Shown piece after piece: positions 8,670 through 48,734 of a stretch of 64,000 nt of DNA. The stretch covers positions 1-64,000 of the forward strand of contig NZ_AMZQ01000010.1 in the NCBI RefSeq assembly GCF_000313615.1. The letters run 5' to 3'. The DNA is from Campylobacter showae CSUNSWCD. GTDB taxonomy: Bacteria; Campylobacterota; Campylobacteria; Campylobacterales; Campylobacteraceae. Under the pieces are notes generated by a model. That model did not search any database and was not told the DNA's origin. It saw only the letters and a program-made list of their open reading frames with translations. The first letter of the stretch is position 1, and the number at the start of each line of letters is the position of its first letter. The translations under genes and the position numbers were made by a program.

Positions 8670-8709
8670 TTTTAAAGCTCAAATTTGACTTCAAATTTGA
8701 GCTTTAAAA
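8670..8709 (-). terminator. Hairpin between the SPFH gene and hisIE
   Basis: Seventeen-base perfect arms (TTTTAAAGCTCAAATTT and its complement) surround a six-base loop within the 322-base gap 8579-8900. The hairpin is downstream of the minus-strand SPFH gene and probably ends its transcript or protects its 3' end. The rest of the gap shows no gene. Confidence 0.6.
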
Positions 8710-8900
8710 GGCGAAGTTTTTTGCAAAAACATTTCGCTTCGCAAAAACCACACCTATTTCGAGATGATTTTGGAGCTACTTGGCCAAATTTAGCGGCAAA
8801 CATGGCTATTGCTTGTGATTGTAACCACAGGTGAAACAAAAACCACGCAAAAAGCGCTCGCCCGCAAAGCGCAAAAAAGGCGAGCCGCTCCAAACAAAAA

Positions 8901-11978: not shown

Positions 11979-12185
11979 CCAAATTTGACTTCAAATTTTA
12001 AATAAAAAACAATATAGCGAAGCATTTTACTTTTTACTTTACGCTTATGCTCGCAACAAGTATACGAAGCGGAAACTAGCCCGGCAGGATACATATAGTA
12101 GCAACCAAGTTTGGATGATATTTCCTTCCGTTTGCAGTTGCGACCGCAAGCATAAGTATAAGTAAAATACGAGTCGGCAAAACCG
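11979..12185 (-). repeat. Intergenic hairpin element, copy C
   Basis: Read on the minus strand, this starts right after the DUF3737 stop codon. It holds a long imperfect hairpin (arms around 12040-12065 and 12132-12165) with TACTATATGTAT at its tip, then a flank ending GCTTCGC ... AATTTGAAGTCAAATTTGG. Tip and flank match copy B at 23553-23746, and the flank also matches copy A at 19121-19316. Position directly behind a stop codon is shared by all three. Its function is unknown; a mobile miniature element, a terminator family or a structured RNA are possible. Confidence 0.55.
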
Positions 12186-13025
12186 CTATTTTTCTAAAAT
12201 TATCCTAGTAGCAGCCGGATCCACGCACTCCTCGTCCATTATAATTTCGCCTATCTCGCTTGCCCTTATCACGCCCGAGAGCGGATTTTTCACGCTAGCT
12301 ATGCTGCCTAAAATTTCCGCGTCCACGCTTGAGTACTCAAAGGCTAGCGTGGTATCTAGCGTTTGGCAGCCGCGCAGCACGAGATTTTGCACGTAGCAAA
12401 GCCCTTGCAGGCTTTCTATCACGCAGTTTTCAAAGGTCACGTTTTTGCTATTCCACGCGAGGTATTCGCCGCTTATAAAGCTATTTCGCACGGTCACGTT
12501 CTCGCAGTTCCAAAAGGCGTCTTTGCTAAGCAGTTTGCTATCCTCGACGAGCAGGTTTTTACAGCCGTCAAAGCCGTAGTTCCCGTCCAAATTTAGCCCG
12601 TAAACGCGCAGGTTTTCGCAGTTCATCGCAAAATAATCCCCGCGCGCGCAGACGTTTTTTATCTCCACGTCCTCACAGCTCCACAGCGTCTCCTCGGCCT
12701 GGGTCAAATTTACGCTTTCCAGCCTCAAATTTTGGCACCTGCGGAAGGATTTTGGCGCTTGGATTAGCGTATCTTTAAAGCTAACGTCCCGCGCATACCA
12801 GATGCCAGCGCGCGCCATCTGCATCAAAAACCCGTCCTCCACGGTGACGTTTTTGGTGTACCACAGCGGATATTTCCACTCGAAAGTGCAGTTTTTCAGG
12901 CGCAAATTTTGCCCGTGCTTTAGCGGCGACTCGCCTGCTGCAAACCCGCACCGCTCAAACTCCGCGTCCTTTACGCCAAACATCGCGCGCTCGCCGATAA
13001 ATTTTTGCTCGACAAATTTTTGCAT
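12186..13025 (-). CDS. DUF3737 right-handed beta-helix protein
   Basis: This 279-residue protein is built of about ten imperfect repeats of roughly 20 residues, each like 'NCENLRVYGLNLDGNYGFDG'. Regular (N/D)C(E/K)N(L/V) turns stack as in a single-stranded right-handed beta helix. It matches the DUF3737 family. No signal peptide or membrane helix is visible. The function of the family is not known. Aromatic residues (W/Y/F) recur at the same point of each coil, which could form a sugar-binding face. It stands alone on the minus strand, followed by repeat element C. Confidence 0.8.
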   Translation of the reverse strand: MQKFVEQKFIGERAMFGVKDAEFERCGFAAGESPLKHGQNLRLKNCTFEWKYPLWYTKNVTVEDGFLMQMARAGIWYARDVSFKDTLIQAPKSFRRCQNLRLESVNLTQAEETLWSCEDVEIKNVCARGDYFAMNCENLRVYGLNLDGNYGFDGCKNLLVEDSKLLSKDAFWNCENVTVRNSFISGEYLAWNSKNVTFENCVIESLQGLCYVQNLVLRGCQTLDTTLAFEYSSVDAEILGSIASVKNPLSGVIRASEIGEIIMDEECVDPAATRIILEK

Positions 13026-13434
13026 ATTTCGCCTCCGCCGTTTTTTACTTAGATTATATCGGTTTTACGGCAACAGGGGTGTAAATTTGAAAATTCAAAG
13101 CGAAATTTGTGAAGCAAACGTGTAAATTTAAGCAACAGAGAAAATCAAAGCGTTTGGGCATTGCTATTGTCTTTAGGAGTCCTATTTTCCCAAACGCTTG
13201 GCAGGAAAAGGTAAGATTTAGACTAGCGCAAAGGATGGAAACGCAAGCCTAAATTTTACCTTTTTGGCGGTCAAATTTGCCGTATCCACGCGGTGCGAGC
13301 GAGCGTCAAATTTGATCTAAATTTAAAGCTCGCGACCAGTCAAATTTGAGCGGGCAAATTTAACCCGGCCGCAAGCGCAAAATCCAAATTTACCAAAAGC
13401 GACCCGAAGCGCACCGGCCGGGAGCCGCTAAATT
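13026..13434. other. Spacer with two hairpins downstream of assT
   Basis: There is no gene here. One hairpin has 11-base arms (AAGCGTTTGGG at 13148-13158 and its complement at 13189-13199) with a 30-base loop. Next to it, AAAAGGTAAGATTTAG pairs imperfectly with CTAAATTTTACCTTTT around 13207-13263. Both lie downstream of the minus-strand sulfotransferase gene and may act in 3'-end formation or as a small structured RNA. Confidence 0.45.
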
Positions 13435-15282
13435 TTACTTCTCAAACGCCTTTTCTAGGCTAAACGGAAACGCCTGATAGCCCATCGCGTTGGTCATTTT
13501 GATCTCGATTGACGGCTCTTTTGCACCCCATTCAAACTCGTTGATGTGAGGGCTAGGCACGCCGACCGGACGGCCCTTGGCGATGTCAAACTGCATGCCA
13601 GCAACCGCTGAGTAAACCATCACGCTATCAAGGTCGTCTTGATACTGCGCAAGCGATGTGACCGAGCTGTACCACTCGCTGCCGCGCTGCTTGCCGTATT
13701 CCCAGACCTGCTCGACGGTTTTAGCTTTTTCGTCGATTTTATAAACGACCGCGCGGGAGTATTTCATACCCGCCATCGCAGGCTGCTCCATGCCGCGGGT
13801 GTCGCCGTTGTCAAAGACCGTTAGATAGACGACGCCCTTTTTAGACTTACTATCGATGCGGAATGCCGTGTGCTGCGTCCACTGCCAGTCAAATCCGCCC
13901 TTCTCGCTCTCATATCCTGGGCATTTTGAGTATTCGTCCTCGCAGACGATCTTTTTGCCGTCTTTATCTACAGGCTGGAGCAAGTAGCCCTTAAACTGAT
14001 CCTTCCAGCCTTTGTGCGCGCCCATTATCCACTTGATCTTTTTGTCGCGGCCGATCTTGATGACGGCGTCTTGGTGGCGGCTGGAGATGATGATACTATC
14101 ATCAGACGGGTCGTAGTCCACGCTATTTACGTGCGCCCAGTTGCGTCCGGGCCCCGAGCCCACGATGTCGCCCCATTTTTCGCTCAAATCCATCGCGGCT
14201 AGCTCGTCCGAGCTAGCGGTGTGGCCTGCTTTGCTAGCGTCGATGTTTAGGCACACCGCGCCCTGATCGAGCGTTTTTAGCACGATGTCGCGATACGGAT
14301 CTAAAATTTCATATAGCCTAAAATCATCCACGACGTTGCCGTCGCGATCGACCTCGACGATGACGTCGCGCACGGTGCGGACGTTTTTACCGTCGGCGCG
14401 TTTATAGTTAGCATTTGCCGCGCGCAGGAAGTAATGTCCGTTTTGCGCAACGTCCATGGAGTGCGAGAAGTCGTTGTAGCCCGCAGGCAGTTCGCGGTTA
14501 AAAATTTCGCGGCCCATTATGTCGTATTTGGCGTATCTTTGGCCATATCCCCACGTCATCGCGCCATCGTCGTTTTGCTTAAAGCCCATCATGACGCCAG
14601 CGCTAAAGGGCTGTTTGAGGTCGTAAATTTTACTCGGCTCCATATACCAGCGCACTTCGCCTTTGGTGTCTAGCACGAAGTTATTTGGGCTGTAGTTCCA
14701 CTCGATCGCGCCGCCTGCAGGGTTGTTCCACACGACCTTGGTGCCTTTGCCTGTTTTATTTACGAAGTTATTTACGTAGTAGAGGCGGTTTGCAAATTTC
14801 GCGCTCGGAGCCTTCACGACTTCGATTTTATCAAACAGCGCGCCCTTTTGAGACGGCATACCGGAGCTCTCCAAATAAATCGCAGGAGCGTAAATTTTAT
14901 AGGTTTCTTTTATACGCTCGGTTTGTCCCTTGTAAATTTTATCGTACTCGACCTCGACGGTGTTTTGATAGTCAGGGTAAAGTCCAAAAACGGGAATTCC
15001 GCCGTGCGTGCGCAGATGTTTGTCGGCGACTTTATAGCTGATAACTTGACCGCCCGGCTTTGGCACGATGGTGACTTTCGCGTTTGCTAGCGTGTAGCCG
15101 CCGTTTTTGATGACCGCCGTTAGAGGCGCGATGTCGTACGGATTTACGACCACTTCGCCGATCTTGCCAGGGACGGCGTAGTCGATGTGCGCGCCGCTAG
15201 GTCCGCCGATAGCAAGTGCTGCCGTGCTTAGACCGCCGAGTAACGCCACAGCTAGGGCGACTGACGATAGAGTTCTTTTCAT
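13435..15282 (-). CDS. assT: Arylsulfate sulfotransferase (AssT), copy 1
   Basis: This periplasmic enzyme moves sulfate from one phenolic ester to another phenol without PAPS. It has 615 residues with a signal peptide (MKRTLSSVALAVALLGG...ALA). The beta-propeller family's His and Arg motifs are present in order: DFSHSMDVAQNGHY, RNWAHVNSVDYDPSDD, IISSRHQDAVIKIGRD and WQWTQHTAF, where the last His is the likely sulfate-accepting residue. Cys pairs near CEDEYSKCPG suggest a structural disulfide made by DsbA. The gene is divergent from dsbA-dsbI across 241 bases, the arrangement expected for a dedicated oxidative-folding module. A strong ribosome site (AAAGGAG) precedes it. Confidence 0.93.
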   Translation of the reverse strand: MKRTLSSVALAVALLGGLSTAALAIGGPSGAHIDYAVPGKIGEVVVNPYDIAPLTAVIKNGGYTLANAKVTIVPKPGGQVISYKVADKHLRTHGGIPVFGLYPDYQNTVEVEYDKIYKGQTERIKETYKIYAPAIYLESSGMPSQKGALFDKIEVVKAPSAKFANRLYYVNNFVNKTGKGTKVVWNNPAGGAIEWNYSPNNFVLDTKGEVRWYMEPSKIYDLKQPFSAGVMMGFKQNDDGAMTWGYGQRYAKYDIMGREIFNRELPAGYNDFSHSMDVAQNGHYFLRAANANYKRADGKNVRTVRDVIVEVDRDGNVVDDFRLYEILDPYRDIVLKTLDQGAVCLNIDASKAGHTASSDELAAMDLSEKWGDIVGSGPGRNWAHVNSVDYDPSDDSIIISSRHQDAVIKIGRDKKIKWIMGAHKGWKDQFKGYLLQPVDKDGKKIVCEDEYSKCPGYESEKGGFDWQWTQHTAFRIDSKSKKGVVYLTVFDNGDTRGMEQPAMAGMKYSRAVVYKIDEKAKTVEQVWEYGKQRGSEWYSSVTSLAQYQDDLDSVMVYSAVAGMQFDIAKGRPVGVPSPHINEFEWGAKEPSIEIKMTNAMGYQAFPFSLEKAFEK

Positions 15283-15523
15283 CTTTTCTCCTTTATAATG
15301 ATAAATTGTTTCATTGCCGTAATTTTAGTGAATCTTTCTAACGTGAAAATCACGCTATTATTATAAATAGCTTAAATCTAGAAAATAATTCAAATTTTTA
15401 TATTTTCCACTAAAATTTAGCCCAAATTTTACGAATTTAATCTAAAATTTATCTTAGCGTGAGTTTTGCGGCGGCGAGAGGATATAAAATTAACTCAGAC
15501 AAAATCATTTTAAGGAGCACTCC

Positions 15524-16180
15524 ATGAACCTACTTTCTAAATTTAGCAAAGGCTTTCTAGCCGTTGCGATGTTTGGCGCTCTTAGCGCTGCCGCGTTTAC
15601 CGAGGGCGAGGACTACGTCAAGCTAGAAAAACCGCTATCAGTGGAGCAAAACACGCTAGTTAAGATATTTAGCTACGCATGCCCGTTTTGCTACAAATAC
15701 GACAAAACCGTCACACCAAAGGTCGTAGAAAAGGTCGCGGGGCTAAAATACGTGCCGTTTCATCTAAAAACCAAGGGCGAATACGGCGAGCTCGGAAGTA
15801 AAATTCTAGCCGTTTTAGCCGTGATGGACGAGGAAAAAGGCGTGAGTCTGCTAGATGAAAACTCGCTGTTTAAAAAAGCAAAATTTGCCTACTACAAGGC
15901 CTATCACGATCAAAAGCAACGCTGGAGCGACGGCAAGGACGAGGCTGCGTTTTTAAAGACTGGGCTTGATGCGGCCGGCGTCAGCGAAGCGGACTATCAA
16001 AAAAAGCTAGAGGATCCAAAAGTCGCCGAACTGCTTAAAAAATGGGACGAGAGCTACGACGTAGCCAAGATCCAAGGCGTGCCGGCGTTCGTCGTAAACG
16101 GCAAATACCTCATCATGACGAAGTCCATCACCTCCCTAGACGGCATGGCGCAGCTAATCGAAGAGCTGCTCAAAAAATAG
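15524..16180 (+). CDS. dsbA: Periplasmic thiol oxidase DsbA (DsbL-like), copy 1
   Basis: This 218-residue thioredoxin-fold oxidase has a signal peptide and the redox site CPFC (Cys53, Cys56) in SYACPFCYKYDKTVTPK. The cis-Pro loop is IQGVPAFVVNGKY. It forms disulfides in exported proteins. Divergence from assT and co-transcription with a DsbB-family partner resemble the assT-dsbL-dsbI set of uropathogenic E. coli, so AssT is its likely main client. TAAGGAG is well placed before the ATG, and a TATAAA box lies at about 15483. Confidence 0.94.
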   Translation: MNLLSKFSKGFLAVAMFGALSAAAFTEGEDYVKLEKPLSVEQNTLVKIFSYACPFCYKYDKTVTPKVVEKVAGLKYVPFHLKTKGEYGELGSKILAVLAVMDEEKGVSLLDENSLFKKAKFAYYKAYHDQKQRWSDGKDEAAFLKTGLDAAGVSEADYQKKLEDPKVAELLKKWDESYDVAKIQGVPAFVVNGKYLIMTKSITSLDGMAQLIEELLKK

Positions 16181-16189
16181 GGCGCGAGC

Positions 16190-16813
16190 ATGAAATTTGC
16201 GCAAAAGTTAGCGAAATTTGGCGATAGCCGCCTGCCGTGGGCGATCCTCATAGCGGTGAGCGCGGGGCTTGTTATCCTCGCGCACTCGCTGTTTCAAAAC
16301 TACGTCTATATGCCGCCTTGCGAGCAGTGCGTTTATATCCGCTTTGCCTTTTTGTGCATGGCGCTAGGAGGCCTGGTCGCGATCATAAATACTAAAAATT
16401 TACTCCTCGCGCTCGCAGGCTACCTGCTAGCGTTTTGGGGCGCGATCCAGGGCATAATGTATAGCGCCAAACTAATCAAAATCCACGACGCCGTCCACGG
16501 AGACGATCCGTTCGGCGTGCAGGGCTGCTCGACTGAGCCGCACTATCCGTTTGGCTTGCCGCTTGAGCGATGGGCGCCTGATTGGTTCTTGCCTACGGGC
16601 GACTGCGGCTACGATAACCCGATGGTTCCAGACGGCGTCACGCTAGACGGCTTTCAGAAGTATCTCGTCGATCTTTACGAGGACGGCTGGTATCTGATCC
16701 CCTCAAGCAAATTTATGTCGATGGCCGACTGCACGCTGATCGGCTTTGGAGTCTGCTTCGTCGTGCTCGCCGCGATGTTTATTTGCAAAATTTTAACTCT
16801 AAAAAAAGCTTAA
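16190..16813 (+). CDS. dsbI: DsbI/DsbB-like disulfide-generating membrane protein
   Basis: This inner-membrane protein of 207 residues reoxidises DsbA using quinone. It has four to five membrane helices. The first periplasmic redox pair is CEQC (Cys44, Cys47) in MPPCEQCVYIRF. The second pair (Cys113, Cys139) lies in a long loop, GCSTEPHYPFG ... FLPTGDCGYDN, as in DsbI rather than short-loop DsbB. The gene begins nine bases after dsbA and ends at a terminator, so it is an operon partner. Confidence 0.9.
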   Translation: MKFAQKLAKFGDSRLPWAILIAVSAGLVILAHSLFQNYVYMPPCEQCVYIRFAFLCMALGGLVAIINTKNLLLALAGYLLAFWGAIQGIMYSAKLIKIHDAVHGDDPFGVQGCSTEPHYPFGLPLERWAPDWFLPTGDCGYDNPMVPDGVTLDGFQKYLVDLYEDGWYLIPSSKFMSMADCTLIGFGVCFVVLAAMFICKILTLKKA

Positions 16814-16838
16814 ATCGGTCTAAATTTAGACCGATTTT
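16812..16838 (+). terminator. Terminator after dsbI
   Basis: A perfect palindrome, AAATCGGTCTAAA and its complement, overlaps the end of the dsbI stop codon and is followed by TTTTGC. It separates dsbI from the sensor kinase starting 15 bases later. Confidence 0.8.
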
Positions 16839-16852
16839 GCTATACTCGCCGC

Positions 16853-18502
16853 ATGAGAGCCTTACGCGAGCATAATTTTAAAATTTACTTCATCATCATT
16901 TTCGCAAGCCTTTTCGTGGTGCTTTTGGGCATGAAAAACTACGAGGACGCCAAGGCGCAGATCACGGCGCTCGCAGATAAAAACAAGATCGCCGCGAGCG
17001 AAAATATGGTAGGGAATTTCTCACTTTGGCTGGACGAGCGGCTGCACTCGCTGGTGCGCGCAGCTAAATTTATAGAAAACGCGGGCGTCTCGCAAGATAG
17101 CGAAAAGCTGGGCGACTTCATACGACTTTTCAAAGAAAACTCCGCAGAATTTGACGCCTTGCAGTTTTTGCGCGAAGACGGAGAAATTTTCGTGGACGGC
17201 AAGGAGCTAGGTGACGATGAAGCGATGCCAAAGAGCCTTCGCGCGGGGCTTGTATGGTTTGAAGAGACCAAAAGCACGCTCGCACCCACGGTAAATTTTA
17301 TGCAGCGCCATAAAATTTTAGGCGAACCGACGCTAAATTTATGCGTGCCCGTGCTGGACGGCGGCTCGTTTGCGGGGGTGTTTTGCGGCGTGGTGAAACT
17401 GCAAAACATACTAAAAAATATGGAAAAATTTAAGCTCGCGCCCGACTCCTACGCCTTTATCGTTACGCACGGCGGCGAAATTTTAACGCCGATGAAGGAC
17501 GCGGCGCTAAAAAAGCAGATCGAGGATAAATTTAAAGAGCTTTTTTTGCGCGATGAGGACATCACGAGCCTAAATATCGGCTCAAATTTCATCTCCGTCG
17601 CCGAGATCCCCACACTAAACTGGTTCATAGGAGCCGGCACCGATAACGAAAAGGAGCTCGCCGCACTGCTTAACTCCGCGCTAAAAAACGCCCTCATCCT
17701 GCTTTTTGCGTTCGCGGCGCTAGCGCTGGTGGCAAATTTCCTCCACAACTTTATGTATTCGAAAATCAAAAACTTGCAAGACGACTACGAAGCTCTGCTC
17801 AAGCACAAAGCCCGTATGAGTGAGGCGGGCGAGCTAATCAGCGGCATAAATCATCAGTTTATCCAGCCGGTTAATTCGCTAAATTTAATGATCTCAAGCC
17901 TGCTCATGCTGCAAAAAGACGGCAAGCTAGATGCCGCGACGCTAGAGAGTATGCTGCAAAAAGGGCAGGCTGCGACCGTGCTTTTAAGCGACACGATCGA
18001 GATTTTTAGAAATTTTTATAAAAGCAGCGACAGTCCGCAAAAATTTAGCGTGCAACGCTGTATCAAAGACCTACTAAAGCTCATGCACACCGAGCTTAGC
18101 AAAGCAAACGTCACGGTAAGCCTGCGCGAGTTTCAAGACAAAGAGGCCACGCAGCGGATGGGCATCGTGCAGCAAATTTTACTCATCCTCATTCACAACG
18201 CCAAAGACGCGGTCGTGGAGAGATACAAAGACGAGATCGCCAAACGGCAAGTTTTTTTGGATGTCAAATTTGAAAACGGCACGTGCAAGATATCCGTCAC
18301 GGACTACGGCAGCGGCGTGAGCAAGGAGCTTCGGGATAAAATTTTAACCCAACCCAAAACCACTAAAAAGCAAGGAAGCGGCATCGGGCTGTATTTTGGC
18401 AAAAAGCTAGCAAACGAAAAGCTCGCAGGCGATGTCAAGCTACTAAGCGCGGGCGATCCGACGACGTTTGAGCTGAGCTTTGAGATAAATTTAAAGGAAT
18501 AA
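16853..18502 (+). CDS. Membrane sensor histidine kinase
   Basis: This 549-residue kinase has a helix at 11-27, a large periplasmic sensor of Cache type (28-276) and a second helix at 277-300. A dimerisation/phosphoacceptor helix pair follows, with His334 in GINHQFIQPVNSLNL. The catalytic ATPase domain shows HNAKDAV (N box), DYGSGVS (G1) and GSGIGLYFGKKL (G2). The His is followed by Gln rather than the usual Glu (HQ instead of HE), which may alter phosphatase or phosphotransfer activity. The ligand is unknown. Its place between the two sulfotransferase loci makes aryl sulfates or redox stress candidate signals, as inference only. The response regulator starts two bases after its stop. Confidence 0.88.
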   Translation: MRALREHNFKIYFIIIFASLFVVLLGMKNYEDAKAQITALADKNKIAASENMVGNFSLWLDERLHSLVRAAKFIENAGVSQDSEKLGDFIRLFKENSAEFDALQFLREDGEIFVDGKELGDDEAMPKSLRAGLVWFEETKSTLAPTVNFMQRHKILGEPTLNLCVPVLDGGSFAGVFCGVVKLQNILKNMEKFKLAPDSYAFIVTHGGEILTPMKDAALKKQIEDKFKELFLRDEDITSLNIGSNFISVAEIPTLNWFIGAGTDNEKELAALLNSALKNALILLFAFAALALVANFLHNFMYSKIKNLQDDYEALLKHKARMSEAGELISGINHQFIQPVNSLNLMISSLLMLQKDGKLDAATLESMLQKGQAATVLLSDTIEIFRNFYKSSDSPQKFSVQRCIKDLLKLMHTELSKANVTVSLREFQDKEATQRMGIVQQILLILIHNAKDAVVERYKDEIAKRQVFLDVKFENGTCKISVTDYGSGVSKELRDKILTQPKTTKKQGSGIGLYFGKKLANEKLAGDVKLLSAGDPTTFELSFEINLKE

Positions 18503-18503
18503 G

Positions 18504-19115
18504 ATGCAAGAGCATTTAAAGCTGCTTAAAGACCTAACCGTCCTCATCGTCGAGGACGACGAGATCGCAAGGGAGCTGCTAATAGGCGGGCTAAAGCCCT
18601 ACTGCCTAAGCGTCTGGGGCGCGGGTGACGGGCTAGAGGGACTGGAGCGCTTTAAAAAGCTAGCTCCCGCCGTCGTCATCACCGACATCCACATGCCCGC
18701 GATGAACGGCTTTGAGATGATGAAGGAGATGATGCGCATAAAGCCCGCGCAAAAATTTATCGTCTTTACCTCCTACGACACCGACGACAACCTCATCAAA
18801 AGCATCGAGCACGGCGCGGCGTCGTTTCTAAAAAAGCCGGTCGATATCGCCGCTCTGTGCCGCCTGCTCGTGGCTCTAACCTACGAAAAGGACGAAAAGC
18901 TCGTGCGCTTAAGCCCGCAAACTAGCATAAATCTCACCAAAGAAAAGATCTACAAAAACGGCGAGGAAATTTATCTCTCGTTTTTGCAAAACAAGCTCTT
19001 TTGGCTCTTTGCGTATAATCTAAACAAGCTCGTGAGCTACGAGATGATCGAGGAGTTCGTCTACGAAGGCGAGCAAACAAGCAAGAGTGGGTATATCCTG
19101 CTAAGCGGCGAATAA
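18504..19115 (+). CDS. Response regulator with a shortened winged-helix domain
   Basis: Residues 1-125 are a receiver domain: acidic pair Asp18/Asp19 (VEDDE), phospho-acceptor Asp61 in ITDIHMPAMNGF, FTSYD, and Lys110-111 in FLKKPVD. Residues 136-203 begin like an OmpR-type winged helix (NGEEIYLSFLQNKLFWLFAY, then NLNKLVSYEMIEEF). The protein stops at KSGYILLSGE, before the recognition helix and wing. It may be truncated: the plus-one frame stays open well past the stop, and repeat element A begins eight bases downstream. As it stands it may not bind DNA in the usual way. It is the partner of the kinase upstream. Confidence 0.82.
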   Translation: MQEHLKLLKDLTVLIVEDDEIARELLIGGLKPYCLSVWGAGDGLEGLERFKKLAPAVVITDIHMPAMNGFEMMKEMMRIKPAQKFIVFTSYDTDDNLIKSIEHGAASFLKKPVDIAALCRLLVALTYEKDEKLVRLSPQTSINLTKEKIYKNGEEIYLSFLQNKLFWLFAYNLNKLVSYEMIEEFVYEGEQTSKSGYILLSGE

Positions 19116-19120
19116 ATTTG

Positions 19121-19316
19121 ATTTGCGGCTTGGCTCGCGAGCGCTTTTTAATGAGTTTTGTTTTTGCTCCTGCGGCAACCTATTTGGTTAGCCTTTGTCG
19201 CAAAAACTGCAACAACATTAAAAATCATCTCGCGATACTTCGCCTTGACGTTTTACGTTCGAATTTGAAGTTAAATTTGTCATTTTGAGTCGCCGAGACC
19301 CGCCCATCGAAAATGC
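19121..19316 (+). repeat. Intergenic hairpin element, copy A
   Basis: It starts with TTGCGGCTTG (19123-19132) just after the response-regulator stop. A long imperfect hairpin follows (CTCGCGAG...CTTTTTAATG pairing with CATTAAAAA...CTCGCGA). The flank after it contains ATACTTCGCCTTGACG, TTCGAATTTGAAGT and GTCGCCGAGACCC. Both flanks match copy B at 23553-23746 closely while the hairpin differs. The next 80 bases show no gene. Confidence 0.6.
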
Positions 19317-19392
19317 CAAATTTGAGTTTTTAAATTTGTAAATTTAGTAAGCTATGAGATAAATATTCAAGACGGATTATGTGTAGTTTGAA

Positions 19393-19459
19393 TAGTTTTT
19401 GGCGGATACGACGGGAGCGGACTGGTCGTCCGTGACCCGAGTATCCTAGCCGAAAACTA
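19393..19459 (-). terminator. Large hairpin downstream of the membrane-protein gene
   Basis: TAGTTTTTGGCGGATAC pairs imperfectly with GTATCCTAGCCGAAAACTA around an inner GGACTGGTCGTCC stem. It lies about 35 bases beyond the stop of the minus-strand gene at 19495 and could end the second sulfotransferase operon. Confidence 0.5.
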
Positions 19460-19494
19460 CTTTTAAAATCCAGCCGAGCTGGGGAATCTTAGAT

Positions 19495-20016
19495 TTAAAT
19501 TCGATTGATTTCGCTACTGCGCGCATTATACACAAACCAGCTCAAAATCATCACCAGACAAAACGCCCCAAACACCGCAAAAAACGCAAAATTCGCCCAC
19601 GAGTAAATTTTGATAAATCCAGCCTCGTTCGCCGCACTAAAATCAGGCGCAAACAGGCTCGGGTAAATTTCATTTAGCGGTAGCGCAAAAGGAAAGCTAA
19701 TCTCGCTAACGCCACTAAAATCGCTAGTGGAGTAATCAAGCCCAAATATCACGCCCAAAAAAATCAGGAAAAATCCCACTAGCTTGACGCCAAATACCTT
19801 AGGTGCACACATCGCCACGCACACGCCAAACGCCGCAAACAGCGTTGCAAAACGCAGCTTCACCACAAGTGCGTCCGCAACCGCACCACCCAAAAACAGC
19901 TCGCACAAGATAAATTTAACCGCTAAAACTGCGAGCAACGCCGCCCAAAACGCCCGCCTTCGCTGCAAGTTATACACAAAGCAGACAAAGCCCTTGTTTT
20001 CGATATTGTAGTCCAT
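19495..20016 (-). CDS. Four-helix membrane protein paired with DsbA copy 2
   Basis: This 173-residue protein has about four membrane helices (AFWAALLAVLAVKFILCELF; FATLFAAFGVCVAM; VGFFLIFLGVIFGL; FAFFAVFGAFCLVMILSWFV) and a periplasmic loop of about 45 residues. It occupies the place a DsbB/DsbI would have: its ATG overlaps the dsbA stop as TAATG. However, it lacks the two Cys pairs of that family. Its Cys are single, apart from CVAMC, which is spaced four residues apart. It may be a different quinone or electron partner, a scaffold, or unrelated. I do not recognise the family. Confidence 0.7.
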   Translation of the reverse strand: MDYNIENKGFVCFVYNLQRRRAFWAALLAVLAVKFILCELFLGGAVADALVVKLRFATLFAAFGVCVAMCAPKVFGVKLVGFFLIFLGVIFGLDYSTSDFSGVSEISFPFALPLNEIYPSLFAPDFSAANEAGFIKIYSWANFAFFAVFGAFCLVMILSWFVYNARSSEINRI

Positions 20017-20672
20017 TATTTTGCCAGCAGCTCCTTGACTGCCGCCGCCATCGCGTCTACCGAGCCGATCGCCTTCACGTTTATGAGATACTTGCCACCG
20101 ACCACGTACGCAGGCACGCCCTGGATCTTCGCCACGTCGTAGCTATTGTTCCACGCTTTTAAAATTTCTTGAGCGCGCTCGCTAGCTAGAGCCTTGTCGT
20201 AGTCTGCGTCGCTCACGCCTGCTGCGCTAAGAGCCGTCTGGATAAATCTCGCCTTGTCCTTGCCGTCGTTAAAATCGTCGTTCTTGTCGTGAGTAGCCTT
20301 GTAGATCGCAAATTTGGCTTTTTTAAATTTAGACTTGTCGCTTAGCAAACTAACGTCGCTAACCTCGTCTAAAACGATCATTGCGGCAAAAATTTTGCTC
20401 GCCGTTTCGCCCAGCTTGCCTTTGGTTTTTAAGTGATACGGGATAAATTTGACTCCGTCTAGCTCGCTAAAGAGTTTGGGCGTGACGGTTTTATCGAATT
20501 TATAGCAGTGCGGACACTCGTAGCTAAAAACCTTTACGACGCTATCTTTGGGTACGTTTAGAGGCTTTTCTAGCACTTGGTAGTCCGTGCCCTCCTCTAG
20601 CGCGTTTGCGCCGATGCCGAGCAGACAAACGGCAACCAAAATTCGTATAAATTTGGAAACCCTTTTCATCAA
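20016..20672 (-). CDS. dsbA: Periplasmic thiol oxidase DsbA, copy 2
   Basis: This 218-residue DsbA has a signal peptide (KFIRILVAVCLLGIGANA) and the active site CPHC (Cys53, Cys56) in SYECPHCYKFDKTVTPK. The cis-Pro loop is IQGVPAYVVGGKY. It aligns along its full length with copy 1 at 15524-16180. CPHC, like E. coli DsbA, should be more oxidising than the CPFC of copy 1. It lies downstream of assT copy 2 on the same strand, separated by 208 bases with a hairpin, and is coupled to the membrane protein that follows. The likely client is that sulfotransferase. Confidence 0.93.
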   Translation of the reverse strand: MMKRVSKFIRILVAVCLLGIGANALEEGTDYQVLEKPLNVPKDSVVKVFSYECPHCYKFDKTVTPKLFSELDGVKFIPYHLKTKGKLGETASKIFAAMIVLDEVSDVSLLSDKSKFKKAKFAIYKATHDKNDDFNDGKDKARFIQTALSAAGVSDADYDKALASERAQEILKAWNNSYDVAKIQGVPAYVVGGKYLINVKAIGSVDAMAAAVKELLAK

Positions 20673-20772
20673 ATTCCTTTGCGGTAAATTTTAAAGATTG
20701 TATAAAAGAAAGGGTAAATTTGAGATTAAGCGAGCTAAACTCGGTAAATTTAACGAGCTAAATTTAAACAAA

Positions 20773-20810
20773 GCGGCGAGTCAAATTTCATTTCAAATTT
20801 AACTCGCCGC
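20773..20810 (-). terminator. Hairpin between assT copy 2 and dsbA copy 2
   Basis: Nine-base perfect arms (GCGGCGAGT and ACTCGCCGC), extended by pairing AAATTT stretches, lie 71 bases after the assT stop. It may be a partial terminator, lowering dsbA relative to assT, or an RNA-stability element. Confidence 0.6.
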
Positions 20811-20880
20811 ACAATTACCGAATCCAGCCGCGCGCCTAGTTTTGACGGCGGCTAGAAAAACTAAACCAGAAAGGTTAAAT

Positions 20881-22653
20881 TTAATATTCAAAGATATTTG
20901 GATCGATCACCATCGCGCGGTATGCCACGTCGTCTCTAGACGCAGACTCAACGTCCATTTCAAATTTGATGTCGTTTGTTTTCGGATCGATCTCCACGAG
21001 CACCATTTTGATCGTTTTATCAGGCTTTAGCAGATAGACGTTCGAGCTTGAGATGAAGTACGTGCTTTTATCCTTTTGCCACTCCACGACGCTCGTAACC
21101 GCGCTATAGAAGTCAAATCCGCGCTCCTTGCCAAACTCCCACGTCTGTTCTACCGTGCCCTTTTTCTCGTCGATCTTGTACTCGACCGCGCGAGAGTATT
21201 TTTCCTCTTTTAGCGCAGGCTGCTCCATACCGCGGCCGTCGCCGTTGTCAAATACGCTGATGTGCTTTACGCTGCCCTTGTTATCGTAGCGCGGGGTGAG
21301 CCACGCGGTGTGCTGCGTCCACGACCAGTCGAAGTCGCCCTCGCATCTTGAGTTTTCGCATTTGATCTTGTTGCCGTTTTTATCCACCGGAGTGAGCACT
21401 TTTTCTTTAAAGTCCGCGCTCCAGCCTTCAGGCGACGCCAGGATCCATTTTACTTTTTTGTCGCGGCCGATCTTAACTATGCCTTGGTGGCGAAGCGAGA
21501 GGATGATACCGTCGTCGCTAGGATCGTGCGAGATCGAGTTTACGTGCGCCCAGTTGCGTCCCGTGCCGGTCGAGGTCACGTCGCCAAAAGGCAGATCGTC
21601 GCTGATTTTGATCTCTTTGGCGTCCATATCGATATTTAGGCACACGGCGCGAGCGTCAAGAGCCTTGATGAGGTTGCTACGATAAACGTTTTTGCCGAAA
21701 ATTTCATTCAGATCCCACTCGTCCACGACCTTGCCGCTGCCGTCCACTTCGATGATGTGATCTCTGATCGTGTGCGAGAGCCTACCGTCTGCGTGGTGGT
21801 AGTTGTATTTGCCGACGCGAAGCAGTAAGTGATCGCCTTTTAGCGGCATCACCTCGTGGCTAAGGTCGATGTAGCCGCGCGGCAGCTCGCGATTATACAC
21901 CTCCTTGCCCATCATATCGTAGCGCATATATCGCTGCGCCATACCCCAGCTCAGATCGCCGTTTGGCAGCTGATGAAAGCCCATCATCATGCCGCCGTCC
22001 ATCACTCTACGCTCGCTGCGGTCGTAAAATTTCTGATAGTCCAGATACCATCTGACCTCGCCCTGCGTATCGACGACGAAATTTTCGGTGAAATCATTCC
22101 AGCTAGCAGCACCGCCGTTTTTCCAATCAAGCGGCTTATAAACGCTCGTGATAGTGTTGTTGATGAGATAGAGCCTGTTTTTAAACGCAGGATCGACCTT
22201 TTTAACCTTCATCTTTTGCATGTGGCTAAATCTATAATCGCGGCTATACGTCACGATCGGCTGAGCGTAAATTTTATACTTTTCGACCTTCTTTTCGCCG
22301 TTAAAAACGTAGCTTACTTCGACCTCGTTTAGATAGTCCGGATACAACCCCCAGATCGGCACGCCGTCATGCGTCAGCAGCGCATGCTCGGAGACGTTAT
22401 ATGAGATGTCGATGCCGCCATTTGGCTTACCCAGCACCCGCACGTGGATATCCTTGATGTCCTTGCCGGCGCGATCAATGACGGCGGTTAGTGGCGCCAC
22501 GTCGTATGGGTTGATAAACACCGAGCCAAGCTCGCCCTGGGTTTTTACCTGATGCGCCAAAACGCCCGCACTCGCAGTCTGCGGCACCGCTATAAACGCG
22601 CCGCCCACTAAGGCCACAGCCAAAACGATAGAACCGAAAAAATTCTTACGCAT
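20881..22653 (-). CDS. assT: Arylsulfate sulfotransferase (AssT), copy 2
   Basis: This 590-residue periplasmic enzyme has a signal peptide (SIVLAVALVGGAFIAVPQTASA). It is a paralogue of the protein at 13435-15282, with the same ordered motifs: DLSHEVMPLKGDH, RNWAHVNSISHDPSDD, ILSLRHQGIVKIGRDKK and DWSWTQHTAW. A likely structural Cys pair is CENSRCEGD. The overall layout is shared, but many residues differ, so it is an old duplication or separate acquisition rather than a recent copy. Substrate choice may differ. It heads an assT-dsbA-membrane protein unit, with AAAAGGAG before the ATG. Confidence 0.93.
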   Translation of the reverse strand: MRKNFFGSIVLAVALVGGAFIAVPQTASAGVLAHQVKTQGELGSVFINPYDVAPLTAVIDRAGKDIKDIHVRVLGKPNGGIDISYNVSEHALLTHDGVPIWGLYPDYLNEVEVSYVFNGEKKVEKYKIYAQPIVTYSRDYRFSHMQKMKVKKVDPAFKNRLYLINNTITSVYKPLDWKNGGAASWNDFTENFVVDTQGEVRWYLDYQKFYDRSERRVMDGGMMMGFHQLPNGDLSWGMAQRYMRYDMMGKEVYNRELPRGYIDLSHEVMPLKGDHLLLRVGKYNYHHADGRLSHTIRDHIIEVDGSGKVVDEWDLNEIFGKNVYRSNLIKALDARAVCLNIDMDAKEIKISDDLPFGDVTSTGTGRNWAHVNSISHDPSDDGIILSLRHQGIVKIGRDKKVKWILASPEGWSADFKEKVLTPVDKNGNKIKCENSRCEGDFDWSWTQHTAWLTPRYDNKGSVKHISVFDNGDGRGMEQPALKEEKYSRAVEYKIDEKKGTVEQTWEFGKERGFDFYSAVTSVVEWQKDKSTYFISSSNVYLLKPDKTIKMVLVEIDPKTNDIKFEMDVESASRDDVAYRAMVIDPNIFEY

Positions 22654-22816
22654 ATTCGCTCCTTTTGGATAAATTTAGCTAATTTTACTACTACCAAATC
22701 ACATAATAATCATACTAGCTTTAAACTTTACTTAAATATAAAATTTAAATCTATATTTTAATAAAAAGGCTTAAATTTTAAAACGAGAGCGAGCCGGATA
22801 ACGGGTCAAATTTTGA

Positions 22817-22849
22817 TATAATTAGCCCGAATTTATCAAATTTAAGGAG
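22817..22849 (+). promoter_or_regulatory. Promoter -10 box and ribosome site for the tautomerase-bcp operon
   Basis: TATAAT at 22817-22822 is preceded by TTTTGA, and AAGGAG at 22844-22849 lies before the ATG at 22855. Confidence 0.6.
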
Positions 22850-22854
22850 AAAAA

Positions 22855-23058
22855 ATGCCTTTCATAAACGTAAAAATGGCAGGCCCGGAGCCGACAAAAG
22901 AGCAAAAGCAAAAGCTGGTCGAGGAGATGACCGACACTATGGTGCGCGTGCTGGGCAAAAACCGCGAACGAGTGCAAATTTATATCGAGACATACGACGC
23001 AAGCTCGATAGGCTCGGGCGGCAAGACGCTTGAGGAGATTAGAAAGGAGCAAAAATGA
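22855..23058 (+). CDS. 4-oxalocrotonate tautomerase-like protein
   Basis: This 67-residue member of the tautomerase superfamily keeps the catalytic Pro as the residue after Met (MPFINVKMAGPEPTKEQKQK), which becomes the free N-terminus. Arg residues around KNRERVQIYIE and the end EEIRKEQK resemble the small DmpI-type subfamily of epsilonproteobacteria. These form hexamers and convert enols to ketones; the natural substrate is unknown. Its TGA overlaps the ATG of bcp (ATGA), so both are translated together. Confidence 0.88.
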   Translation: MPFINVKMAGPEPTKEQKQKLVEEMTDTMVRVLGKNRERVQIYIETYDASSIGSGGKTLEEIRKEQK

Positions 23059-23552
23059 GCGAATTTTCAAAAGAGGACCTAGAGCGCAAGATCACGCTAG
23101 CAGCGGGCGATACGGCGCCAAATTTTACCCTAGAAAACAGCGACGGCGTTAGCATCAGCCTAAAAGACTTCGTCGGCAAAAACGTCGTGCTGTACTTTTA
23201 CCCAAAGGATAACACCCCGGGCTGCACGACCGAGGCATGCGAATTTAGCGCACTTTACGACGATTTTATCGCCAAAGACACCGTGATCGTGGGCGTTAGT
23301 CCCGATAGCGTCAAATCACACGCCGGCTTTGCGCAAAAACAGGGCCTAAAACACATCCTGCTAAGTGACCCCACGCACGAAGTCGCCAAACTCTACGGCG
23401 TCTGGCAGGTGAAAAAAAACTACGGCAAAGAGTATCTGGGTATCGCGCGCTCGACCTTTGTGATCGGCAAAGACGGCAAAGTCGCGAAGGTGTATAAGAG
23501 CGTGAAGGCGAAGGAGCATGCGGCGAAGGTTTTGGCCGATCTTGTGAAGTGA
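23055..23552 (+). CDS. bcp: Thiol peroxidase Bcp (peroxiredoxin)
   Basis: This 165-residue cytosolic peroxiredoxin of the Bcp/PrxQ type reduces hydrogen peroxide and organic peroxides. The peroxidatic Cys is in YPKDNTPGCTTEACEFS; a second Cys five residues later fits the atypical two-Cys mechanism. Other family signatures are GDTAPNFTLENSDG and VVLYFYPKD. It is co-transcribed with the tautomerase. The repeat element copy B begins directly at its stop codon. Confidence 0.95.
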   Translation: MSEFSKEDLERKITLAAGDTAPNFTLENSDGVSISLKDFVGKNVVLYFYPKDNTPGCTTEACEFSALYDDFIAKDTVIVGVSPDSVKSHAGFAQKQGLKHILLSDPTHEVAKLYGVWQVKKNYGKEYLGIARSTFVIGKDGKVAKVYKSVKAKEHAAKVLADLVK

Positions 23553-23746
23553 TTGCGGCTTGTCTTTTTCCTTTATACTTCGTTAGAAATTTCGCCGAAG
23601 CTCGGTTACATACTATATGTATGCGCCCTCGCTCGGCTCATTTCCGCCTCGTCTAAAGGAAAAATACTTCGCCTTACCGTTTTATACTCGAATTTGAAGT
23701 CAAATTTGCAAATTTGAGTCACTGAGACCCACATTTTGAAAATGCA
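23553..23746 (+). repeat. Intergenic hairpin element, copy B
   Basis: It starts at the bcp stop with TTGCGGCTTG. A long imperfect hairpin has CTTTTTCCTTTA pairing with TAAAGGAAAAA and the tip CATACTATATGTATG at about 23609-23623. The flank ATACTTCGCCTTACCG, TCGAATTTGAAGTCAAATTTG and GAGTCACTGAGACCC follows. Flanks match copy A; tip and inner arm match copy C. Confidence 0.65.
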
Positions 23747-23759
23747 AATTTTAAACCTG

Positions 23760-24060
23760 CGACGCTTTACTCGCAGAGCAAAGCAGTGTCGCCACCTCTA
23801 ACGTGCAGTGGGGCTGGAGAGGGCTTGGGAGAGGGTCTGTCTTGGACAGTTACGAGCGCAAAGCGCGAAGTAAAGGAAGGCGACGCTTCGTAAGTAGGTC
23901 TGCTTTGCAGTTACGAGCCGCAGGCGAAGTAAAGCCCCTTCCTCTCCCTAAAAAAGAGAAAGGCGGATATAAAAGGGTGCTCTTTTGCTTCGGCTTTGCC
24001 TCGCAACTGCAAGGCAGAGCGCCATTCAAGCCCCCACCCCCTTTACAATAAAGTAAAAAA
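23760..24060. repeat. Mosaic repeat region
   Basis: This stretch carries two copies of a motif reading CAGTTACGAGC...CGAAGTAAAG, at about 23847-23875 and 23908-23934. It also has opposing purine and pyrimidine runs (GGGAGAGGG and CCTCTCCC) that can pair. Open frames on both strands (82 codons each) overlap head to head and lack ribosome sites, so I read the region as non-coding repeat debris. Confidence 0.5.
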
Positions 24061-24120
24061 ACAACCTTAGACGGTTGCCTTTTGCTCAAGGAAACCAAAC
24101 TCGCAATGCCAAATTTGACA

Positions 24121-24160
24121 AAACCAAATTTAGCATTGTAAATCTGCGGGTCTCGGCAAG
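24121..24160 (-). repeat. Partial inverted copy of the element flank (copy F)
   Basis: GCGGGTCTCGGC at 24146-24157 is the reverse complement of GCCGAGACCCGC in copy A, and the nearby GCATT/TAAATTTGG also aligns. Only the distal flank is present, in opposite orientation to copy B. Confidence 0.45.
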
Positions 24161-24220
24161 TAAAATTTAAAATATTTCCCCAAATTTAACCTAAAAATCC
24201 TGTCAAATTTCCGCTCAAAT

Positions 24221-47993: not shown

Positions 47994-48128
47994 TTTTTAT
48001 CCTTAGTGAAATAAATTTAAGTGTAAATTTGCAAAAAACTGCCAAATTTAAAACGAAACCGGCCAAATTTTGAATGAAAAAACAGGCGACAGTTTTGCAA
48101 ATTTAATGACAAAGCGAAACACAAAATA

Positions 48129-48228
48129 TCGTGAGATGGATTTAAATGTTGCGACGAAAAATCAAGCATGCGCTAGGCACATAGCCTGCGGAGTGAGAAT
48201 TTTTCTAGCTCATTTAAAGACACTCACG
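48129..48228 (-). repeat. Long imperfect hairpin after yajQ (possible fourth element)
   Basis: The arms TCGTGAG...TTTAAATG...GAAAAAT and their complements enclose a GCTAGGCACATAGCC tip. It begins eight bases after the yajQ stop codon, the same position as elements A to C. The downstream flank resembles theirs only weakly (TTTCGCTTTGTCATTAAATTTG). Confidence 0.45.
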
Positions 48229-48236
48229 AGAAGCTG

Positions 48237-48734
48237 TTATTTTAGGTTTTTAAAGCTTATCGGAAGTTCTAAATTTAACCCCCTCACCAGCTTTATACAC
48301 TCCTGCAGATCATCTATGCTTTTGCTTGTCACTCTGATCTCTTCGCCCCTGATCTGCGCGCTCACCTTGATCTTTGAGTCTTTGATCGCTTTGGTGATCT
48401 TTTTTGAGTTTTCGCCGTCAAGCGTGTCGTTTAGCTTTAGCGTCGCCTTTAAATTTCCACCGCTCGCTGGCTCTCTTTTTGTCTCGGTGATCGCAACTGG
48501 TGGGATATTTCGCTTGATAAGTTTTGAGATCACTATATCTTTTAGTGCGTCGATCTTGTTGTCGCTTGAGCTAAGAAGCGTGATAAATTTCTCTTTTTCA
48601 TTTAGCTCCACTTCAGCCGCCAGCCCCTTAAAGTCATATCTAGCAGCGATCTCTTTTTTCGCCGTCTCAAGAGCGTTTTTAACCTCCATCATATCGACCG
48701 CTGCGCTTATATCAAAACTATGCTCAGTTGCCAT
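48237..48734 (-). CDS. YajQ-family (DUF520) nucleotide-binding protein
   Basis: This 165-residue cytosolic protein has two ferredoxin-like domains. Signatures are [64 protein letters not shown] and [20 protein letters not shown]. Some homologues (Xanthomonas, Pseudomonas) bind cyclic di-GMP and modulate a transcription factor; others bind RNA or nucleotides. It starts two bases after the hydroxyacid dehydrogenase stop on the same strand. Confidence 0.93.

Follow-up and report, generated by a model that had tools for sequence, protein, structure and literature searches.

Intervening sequences (IVSs) that interrupt the 23S rRNA gene have been described in several Campylobacter species at helix 45 and, only in C. 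sputorum, at helix 25, in a study whose available part treats IVSs within rRNA genes only (PMC2801512). For Coxiella, the accessible portion of another work reports that RNase III excises the IVS from the precursor rRNA, and horizontal transfer of IVSs was proposed there from their patchy distribution (PMC4990558). Moreover, the 23S inserts of Nostoc and Deinococcus were presented, in the part of the source at hand, as transposase-coding elements with other copies, so that dispersed relatives of 23S inserts are not new as such (PMC2672173). In open-licence PubMed Central, as far as the texts were partly accessible, no literature linking Campylobacter IVSs to dispersed repeats was found, and the origin of rRNA IVSs and their route into rRNA genes is an old question. 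Here, an intergenic element was studied in a stretch of 64,000 nucleotides from Campylobacter showae CSUNSWCD (contig NZ_AMZQ01000010.1, positions 1 to 64,000; this whole stretch is called the window). Its copies belong to a genus-wide family of modular hairpins, composed of a folded unit of ~120 nt and a tail of ~80-90 nt, and in our best reading the same hairpin element also forms the body of some Campylobacter 23S rRNA IVSs.

A first-pass annotation of the window had described three copies with fixed flanks and an interchangeable central hairpin, A (19121-19316), B (23553-23746) and C (11979-12185, minus strand). The flank motifs ascribed to A and B, namely GCGGCTTG, ATACTTCGCCTT, GAATTTGAAGT, AAATTTG and GAGACCC, were all recovered, and the two central hairpins do differ. 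Both copies consist of a hairpin unit of ~120 nt between GGCTTGTCT-like and ATACTTCGCC ends, with a tail behind it that runs to about GAGACCC...AAAATGC. The unit of A (19127-19246, minus, which is the better-folding strand) is of type 1, with an AACC/GGTT tip, takes part in the covariation described below and fits the type-1 covariance model R1 with 108.8 bits (E 1e-27), whereas that of B (23557-23675, minus) is of type 2 and fits model R2 with 115.4 bits (E 1.3e-29). The tails lie on the plus strand at 19247-19323 for A (AAATTTGAAG-like ... GAGACCC ... AAAATGCC) and at 23676-23752 for B, and the right-hand 89 nt of the two copies share 80-81% identity (BLAST E 1.3e-16). The family is a dispersed one, of which A and B are full members and C is a degenerate, weak one: the hairpin tip TACTATATGTAT is indeed common to B and C, and BLAST links C to B over the tail of C (11980-12034, E 5.9e-5) and over a stretch of its core (12061-12124, E 0.03), but neither R1 nor R2 matched C, with the cut-off at E 1 and the filters switched off. 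The original set of copies was also incomplete, having overlooked a full type-1 unit, copy D (48118-48236, plus; R1 89.4 bits, E 2.4e-22), placed directly behind the TAA stop of the open reading frame (ORF) 48237-48734 on the minus strand, and a degenerate type-2 hairpin (19369-19480, plus; R2 32.1 bits, E 1.7e-6) opposite copy A in the same convergent spacer. In an Rfam scan of the window, six tRNAs alone reached the gathering score, and the hairpin copies matched no curated family.

Searches with single copies and with the covariance models returned dozens of matches. Within the same genome, the similarity goes beyond chance: BLAST with copy B as query gave 66 matches at E up to 1, and a further copy gave 65 at E up to 0.01. 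These figures count aligned pieces, including the query itself and palindromic back-matches, and not copies. At the DNA level (E up to 1e-4), matches were found in 16 of 41 relative genomes, all 16 in the genus, to which 25 of those searched belong. Using the covariance models (E up to 0.001), R1 was detected in 38 of 41 genus genomes, leaving three (G008, G010 and G042) without any R1 match, and R2 in 36 of 41. R1 matches numbered 50 in G000, 63 in G005, 51 in G021, 51 in G023, 21 in G046 and 0-9 in the other genus genomes, and R2 matches 24, 51, 35 and 38 in the first four of these, 17 in G004, 16 in G020 and 0-10 elsewhere in the genus; at most 88-89 candidates were scored per genome under strict filters and the models cross-match, so these are not exact copy numbers. 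At the order level, seven of 100 genomes matched R1 (E up to 1e-5), comprising G000, G011 and five others with one to three weaker matches that were inspected as alignments only. An exact-pattern scan of genome contigs yielded three stretches, of which two, from Campylobacter showae CC57C, align to loci of the studied genome at about 90-94%, and the third is an unrelated Saccharicrinis record.

The hairpin unit is conserved as a structure. Two hand-picked alignments were examined, A1 with 26 type-1 units and A2 with 25 type-2 units (including L112 and L078:119-235), and compensatory changes were present in both hairpin types. Standard pairs are formed by 98.7% of the cells in A1, where both partners change in 25 of 41 pairs, and by 95.4% in A2, where this holds for 21 of 33 pairs; a slid-structure control reached at best 49.3% paired cells for A1 and 44.9% for A2, in a comparison that flatters the structures, since these came from the same alignments. 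Cells changed on both sides numbered 206 in A1 against 71.6 (s.d. 7.3) in shuffles, and 163 in A2 against 55.2, both far outside the shuffled values, and the count of further pair types in A1 was unremarkable, being reached by 68 of 500 shuffles. The internal loops are nearly fixed, as seen for GCGAAGUAU opposite AGACAAGC on the better-folding strand, and the helices vary, with the two arms changing together. The initial guess of a structured element is well supported, best on the strand opposite to that of the first-pass annotation. This strand folds better in 54 of 56 type-1 and in all 24 type-2 units, a bias to which the scoring of purine-rich loops by the energy model may contribute. For these counts, and for the gene edges discussed below, units first gathered by motif (91 rows, some misclassified) were cleared of seven false matches, doubled left ends, duplicates and lengths outside 116-124 nt, resulting in 80 units from 64 loci, orthologous copies included. 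Among pairs present in the consensus of both strands, wobble-type cells also favour the opposite strand, by 30 against 10 in type 1 and 23 against 3 in type 2, in counts whose cells are not independent; for this and the module analysis, three of the 56 type-1 rows (L078_1304, L112_2194 and L054_1338) were removed.

Family members were also found inside 23S rRNA genes. The 23S inserts of five relatives (G005, G024, G003, G019 and G011) hold one, with R1 scores of 46.3-112.6 bits; the large-subunit (LSU) rRNA gene of G005 (L251, 3311-6800) contains two R1 matches and those of G024 (L252) and G003 (L253) one each. The helix-45 site (helix numbers 25 and 45 were assigned from position and PMC2801512) was compared in 18 genomes, with one or two operons read in each. 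In 12 of them the site is empty, with the 9-nt loop AGTTTTACT, five have a unit-bearing insert (46.3 bits in G011 and 85.5-107.1 bits in G024, G003, G019 and G005) and one, G020, has an insert without a unit; in G042 and G016 the site query found nothing. The G020 insert (L267), in which no R1 match was detected, has its closing stem GCACTTAAT/ATTAAGTGC in common with G024 and different contents. The G003 insert has this closing stem as well, and in the G020 insert fixed ends are again combined with other contents. All six 23S units found share one orientation, and the helix-25 unit of G005 and the helix-45 unit of G024 are 95% identical over 111 nt. These copies are inserts within a 23S gene that are absent at the same place in relatives, as defines an IVS; the window copies are not.

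The type-1 outer helix occurs as three alleles, and its two arms agree in 52 of 53 units, whereas free assortment of the arms would give 24.3; inner helices combine with different outer alleles, one inner type, for example, being found with four CGCG and six TTTT outers. Since the arms agree and the inner helices mix with several outers, it appears that a module is exchanged as a whole, with its two arms, the exceptions being L180_1503, whose outer arms are mismatched, and L151_1506, which by eye looks chimeric across the tip. Furthermore, a small palindrome, TTGCTTCG...CGCAACTGCAAGCAGA, lies inside 13 of 85 units, nested in tips and stems (loci L015, L025, L061 and L146), and the orthologous sites L018 and L061 differ by an insertion of this palindrome at the hairpin tip.

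The core also differs between species at one and the same site. Among the 85 units of four genomes, 49 orthologous pairs (36 locus pairs, tandem units having put some loci into several pairs) were identified from a local match within the upstream 300 nt, with identity of 0.89-0.97. Core identity was at least 0.93 in 12 pairs, of which L152/L172 (158 nt) is possibly not a typical unit, and did not exceed 0.82 in the other 37. This identity was computed over the longer unit and is depressed by nested insertions (0.78 for L018/L061, with a 32-nt insert); when pairs with long insertions are set aside, 28 remain, 11 of them at or above 0.93 and 17 at or below 0.82. At the B site, the upstream gene end is near-identical in G000, G021 and G005, and the cores are of type 2, type 2 and type 1, respectively, whereas at the A site G000, G021, G005 and G023 all differ from one another. 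In farther genus members, the A and B sites are without the element and mostly have other downstream genes, some of these loci having been viewed in the wrong orientation. An empty-site scan among the fetched loci revealed mostly indels in downstream repeats, and between L139 and L156 one whole facing unit is missing, which reads as unit loss or gain. The checks proposed with the first-pass annotation mostly spoke for it: matches ran to dozens, pairs changed in a compensatory manner, and related genomes have another core at the same site. An empty site contrasts cleanly with a filled one only at helix 45 of the rRNA. Copies from relatives were taken around the listed best matches only, so that this site comparison is no census.

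Regarding their surroundings, copies A, B and C start near stop codons, as had been noticed (A after TAA 19113-19115, B after TGA 23550-23552 and C after TAG 12186-12188). The statement that the element is always behind a stop codon was, however, too strong for the family. A gene was predicted on the side of the GGCTTGTC end in 78 units, and in 71 of them the distance from this end to the gene edge is at most 25 nt, the unit being behind a stop in 60 cases and before a start in 11; gene edges were taken from mechanical ORF calls, and orthologous copies are not independent. In the 11 start-side units, this end is 13-20 nt before the start. The ATACTTCGCC end, on whose side the tail follows, has a gene at 0-25 nt in 2 of 78 units. 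Both orientations relative to genes occur, and A, B and C follow genes of unrelated families. In the four rRNA operons that were read (L251, L252, L253 and L256), 3-4 nt separate the GGCTTGTC end from a following tRNA gene in five of six copies in the 16S-23S spacer, the exception being L251 2291-2410, and three copies begin 33 nt behind the 23S gene.

Some further placements were recorded beside genes and RNA genes. In G003, another unit (L253 5118-5236, plus; 90.8 bits) stops 22 nt short of the 5S rRNA gene. In the low-copy relatives G007 (L068), G022 (L069), G017 (L070), G013 (L071) and G002 (L073), a copy lies just upstream of a gene start that, by eye, resembles that of an adenylate kinase, with another core at this place in G002. 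In the studied genome, L255 2216-2362 (minus) matches the antisense RNA HPnc0260 of Rfam with 82.1 bits and overlaps a tRNA gene.

Within the window, the spacer behind copy B is composite. A mosaic of more repeats extends behind the B tail at 23753-24111, including GCGACGCTTTGC-like, CGTGCAGTGGGG, CCCTTCC-like and AACAACC stem sequences, and recurs behind other copies. The small palindrome family TTGCTTCG...CGCAACTGCAAGCAGA (~32 nt) is represented in this spacer at 23899-24018, the window having three pattern matches against 0.61 expected. At the far end lies the inverted partial flank that had been placed at 24121-24160; it is present but larger, at 24112-24172 (minus), its 61 nt being 72% complementary to A tail 19277-19337. 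A tail-like fragment at 8680-8722 (minus) matches the B tail by BLAST (E 5.9e-5). Copy A is flanked by two probable paralogue pairs: the 218-aa ORFs 15524-16180 and 20016-20672, on opposite strands, with a 152-nt inverted repeat of 70%, and the ORFs 13435-15282 (615 aa) and 20881-22653 (590 aa), the latter of which Pfam assigns to the arylsulfotransferases, with a 107-nt direct repeat of 70%.

We consider it rather likely that these copies represent a non-autonomous, probably selfish, modular hairpin family of the genus, which also forms some of its 23S IVSs and whose movement we infer. Such an element would persist where a transcript tolerates an extra hairpin, that is, downstream of a stop codon, ahead of a ribosome-binding site, next to tRNA and 23S genes and in expendable rRNA loops. 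A change of core would correspond to the overwriting of one copy by another through recombination, either within a genome or from imported DNA. Small hairpins would also insert at hairpin tips, and the larger unit may do the same. Copying to new sites would need a trans-acting enzyme, perhaps one recognising a folded single strand, and a unit that interrupts rRNA would be removed by RNase III, as published for other IVSs.

Several observations weigh against this reading. Other repeats follow the tail, so that the right end is diffuse, and no target duplications could be made out there. Many sites are common to species and recent movement to new sites therefore looks rare; such shared sites could equally mean a host function. 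The rRNA helix-45 site provides the only clean empty/filled comparison, and no mobilising enzyme was found in the searches for Y1 transposase (41 genomes), reverse transcriptase (the four high-copy genomes) and integron integrase (eight genomes). The strand that is transcribed in the 23S copies folds less well than its complement, a poor fit with selection on the rRNA transcript, and the type-2 plus-strand consensus alone reverses the wobble balance, with 52 GT against 25 AC cells.

Two other readings are doubtful. One goes further than the selfish family and supposes a mobile element of a new class that would spread as a folded single strand, in which nested hairpin modules would enter hairpin tips and gene edges and be swapped at fixed internal loops, moved by a novel enzyme and giving rise to the rRNA IVSs of the genus. 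The other supposes a structured RNA or gene-end element serving the host, such as a terminator, processing site or regulator, kept at each site by selection while its cores drift under structural constraint. The very strong covariation, the sites common to several species and the placement at gene edges, including the distances to tRNA and 23S genes in the rRNA operons, would suit a host role. However, R1 matches range from 0 to 63 within one genus and three of its 41 genomes have none, the genes before A, B and C are unrelated, both orientations are found, and at orthologous sites differing cores outnumber kept ones. A terminator was tried as a candidate and rejected: by eye, no clear T run follows the units, and the best-folding strand points towards the neighbouring gene.

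It is improbable that the palindromes are kept symmetrical by mutation alone, through template switching in hairpins and with no selection. Near-perfect matching of the arms, small palindromes inside the units and spacers rich in AAATTT words are what such a process would leave, but some unpaired internal-loop columns are invariant, which speaks against it as a full explanation. Moreover, one strand is favoured by the wobbles among pairs common to both strands, and the helices, as judged by eye, differ as discrete alleles common to several sites.

Compared with known mobile systems, the selfish hairpin family resembles repetitive extragenic palindromic (REP) sequences and bacterial interspersed mosaic elements (BIMEs), which are moved by a Y1 transposase of the REP-associated tyrosine transposase (RAYT) or IS200 type, in being dispersed intergenic palindromes, in forming mosaics with inverted units and in folding as a single strand. 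It differs in its longer unit of ~120 nt with a tail, its nearly fixed internal loops and its exchangeable helices. The Y1 transposase domain PF01797 (E up to 0.001) was found in none of the 41 genus genomes, with control matches in 5 of 14, which contradicts a Y1 enzyme encoded in these genomes and led to the rejection of REP/RAYT membership; with an external helper as its possible recourse, this origin is very improbable. Integron attC sites have bottom-strand structure, a variable core and a position directly behind stop codons. The present family shares the folded bottom strand and the variable core behind a stop, but its copies are dispersed, no cassette array was seen and no integron integrase (TIGR02249) exceeded the cut-off in eight genomes (best 50.6 bits, cut-off 265), so that attC membership was rejected and such an origin is hardly credible. 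Weaker TIGR02249 matches occurred in all eight genomes and all 14 controls, as expected of general tyrosine recombinases. The retron-like module suggested in the first-pass annotation did not hold up, and retron membership was rejected, since the reverse transcriptase domain PF00078 was absent from the four high-copy genomes G000, G005, G021 and G023; one is present in 11 of the 41 genus genomes.

The suggestion of a miniature mobile element is plausible, although no Y1 transposase was found in the 41 genus genomes. Miniature inverted-repeat transposable elements (MITEs) such as QMITE1 and QMITE2 of Coxiella are, according to the available part of their description, likewise short and dispersed, mostly in spacers and behind genes (PMC5896051), whereas the present family has, by eye, no simple terminal inverted repeat, and its diffuse right end is obscured by further repeats. 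With the Campylobacter 23S IVSs, the family has in common the reported positions (helices 25 and 45) and the fold into a long hairpin, and it differs from them in having dozens of matches outside rRNA. The same unit is present in the 23S gene of some species and in dozens of spacers of the same or related genomes, making the origin and movement of IVSs traceable within one genus, and the family constitutes a large natural set of covarying hairpins with modules that reassort at fixed places.

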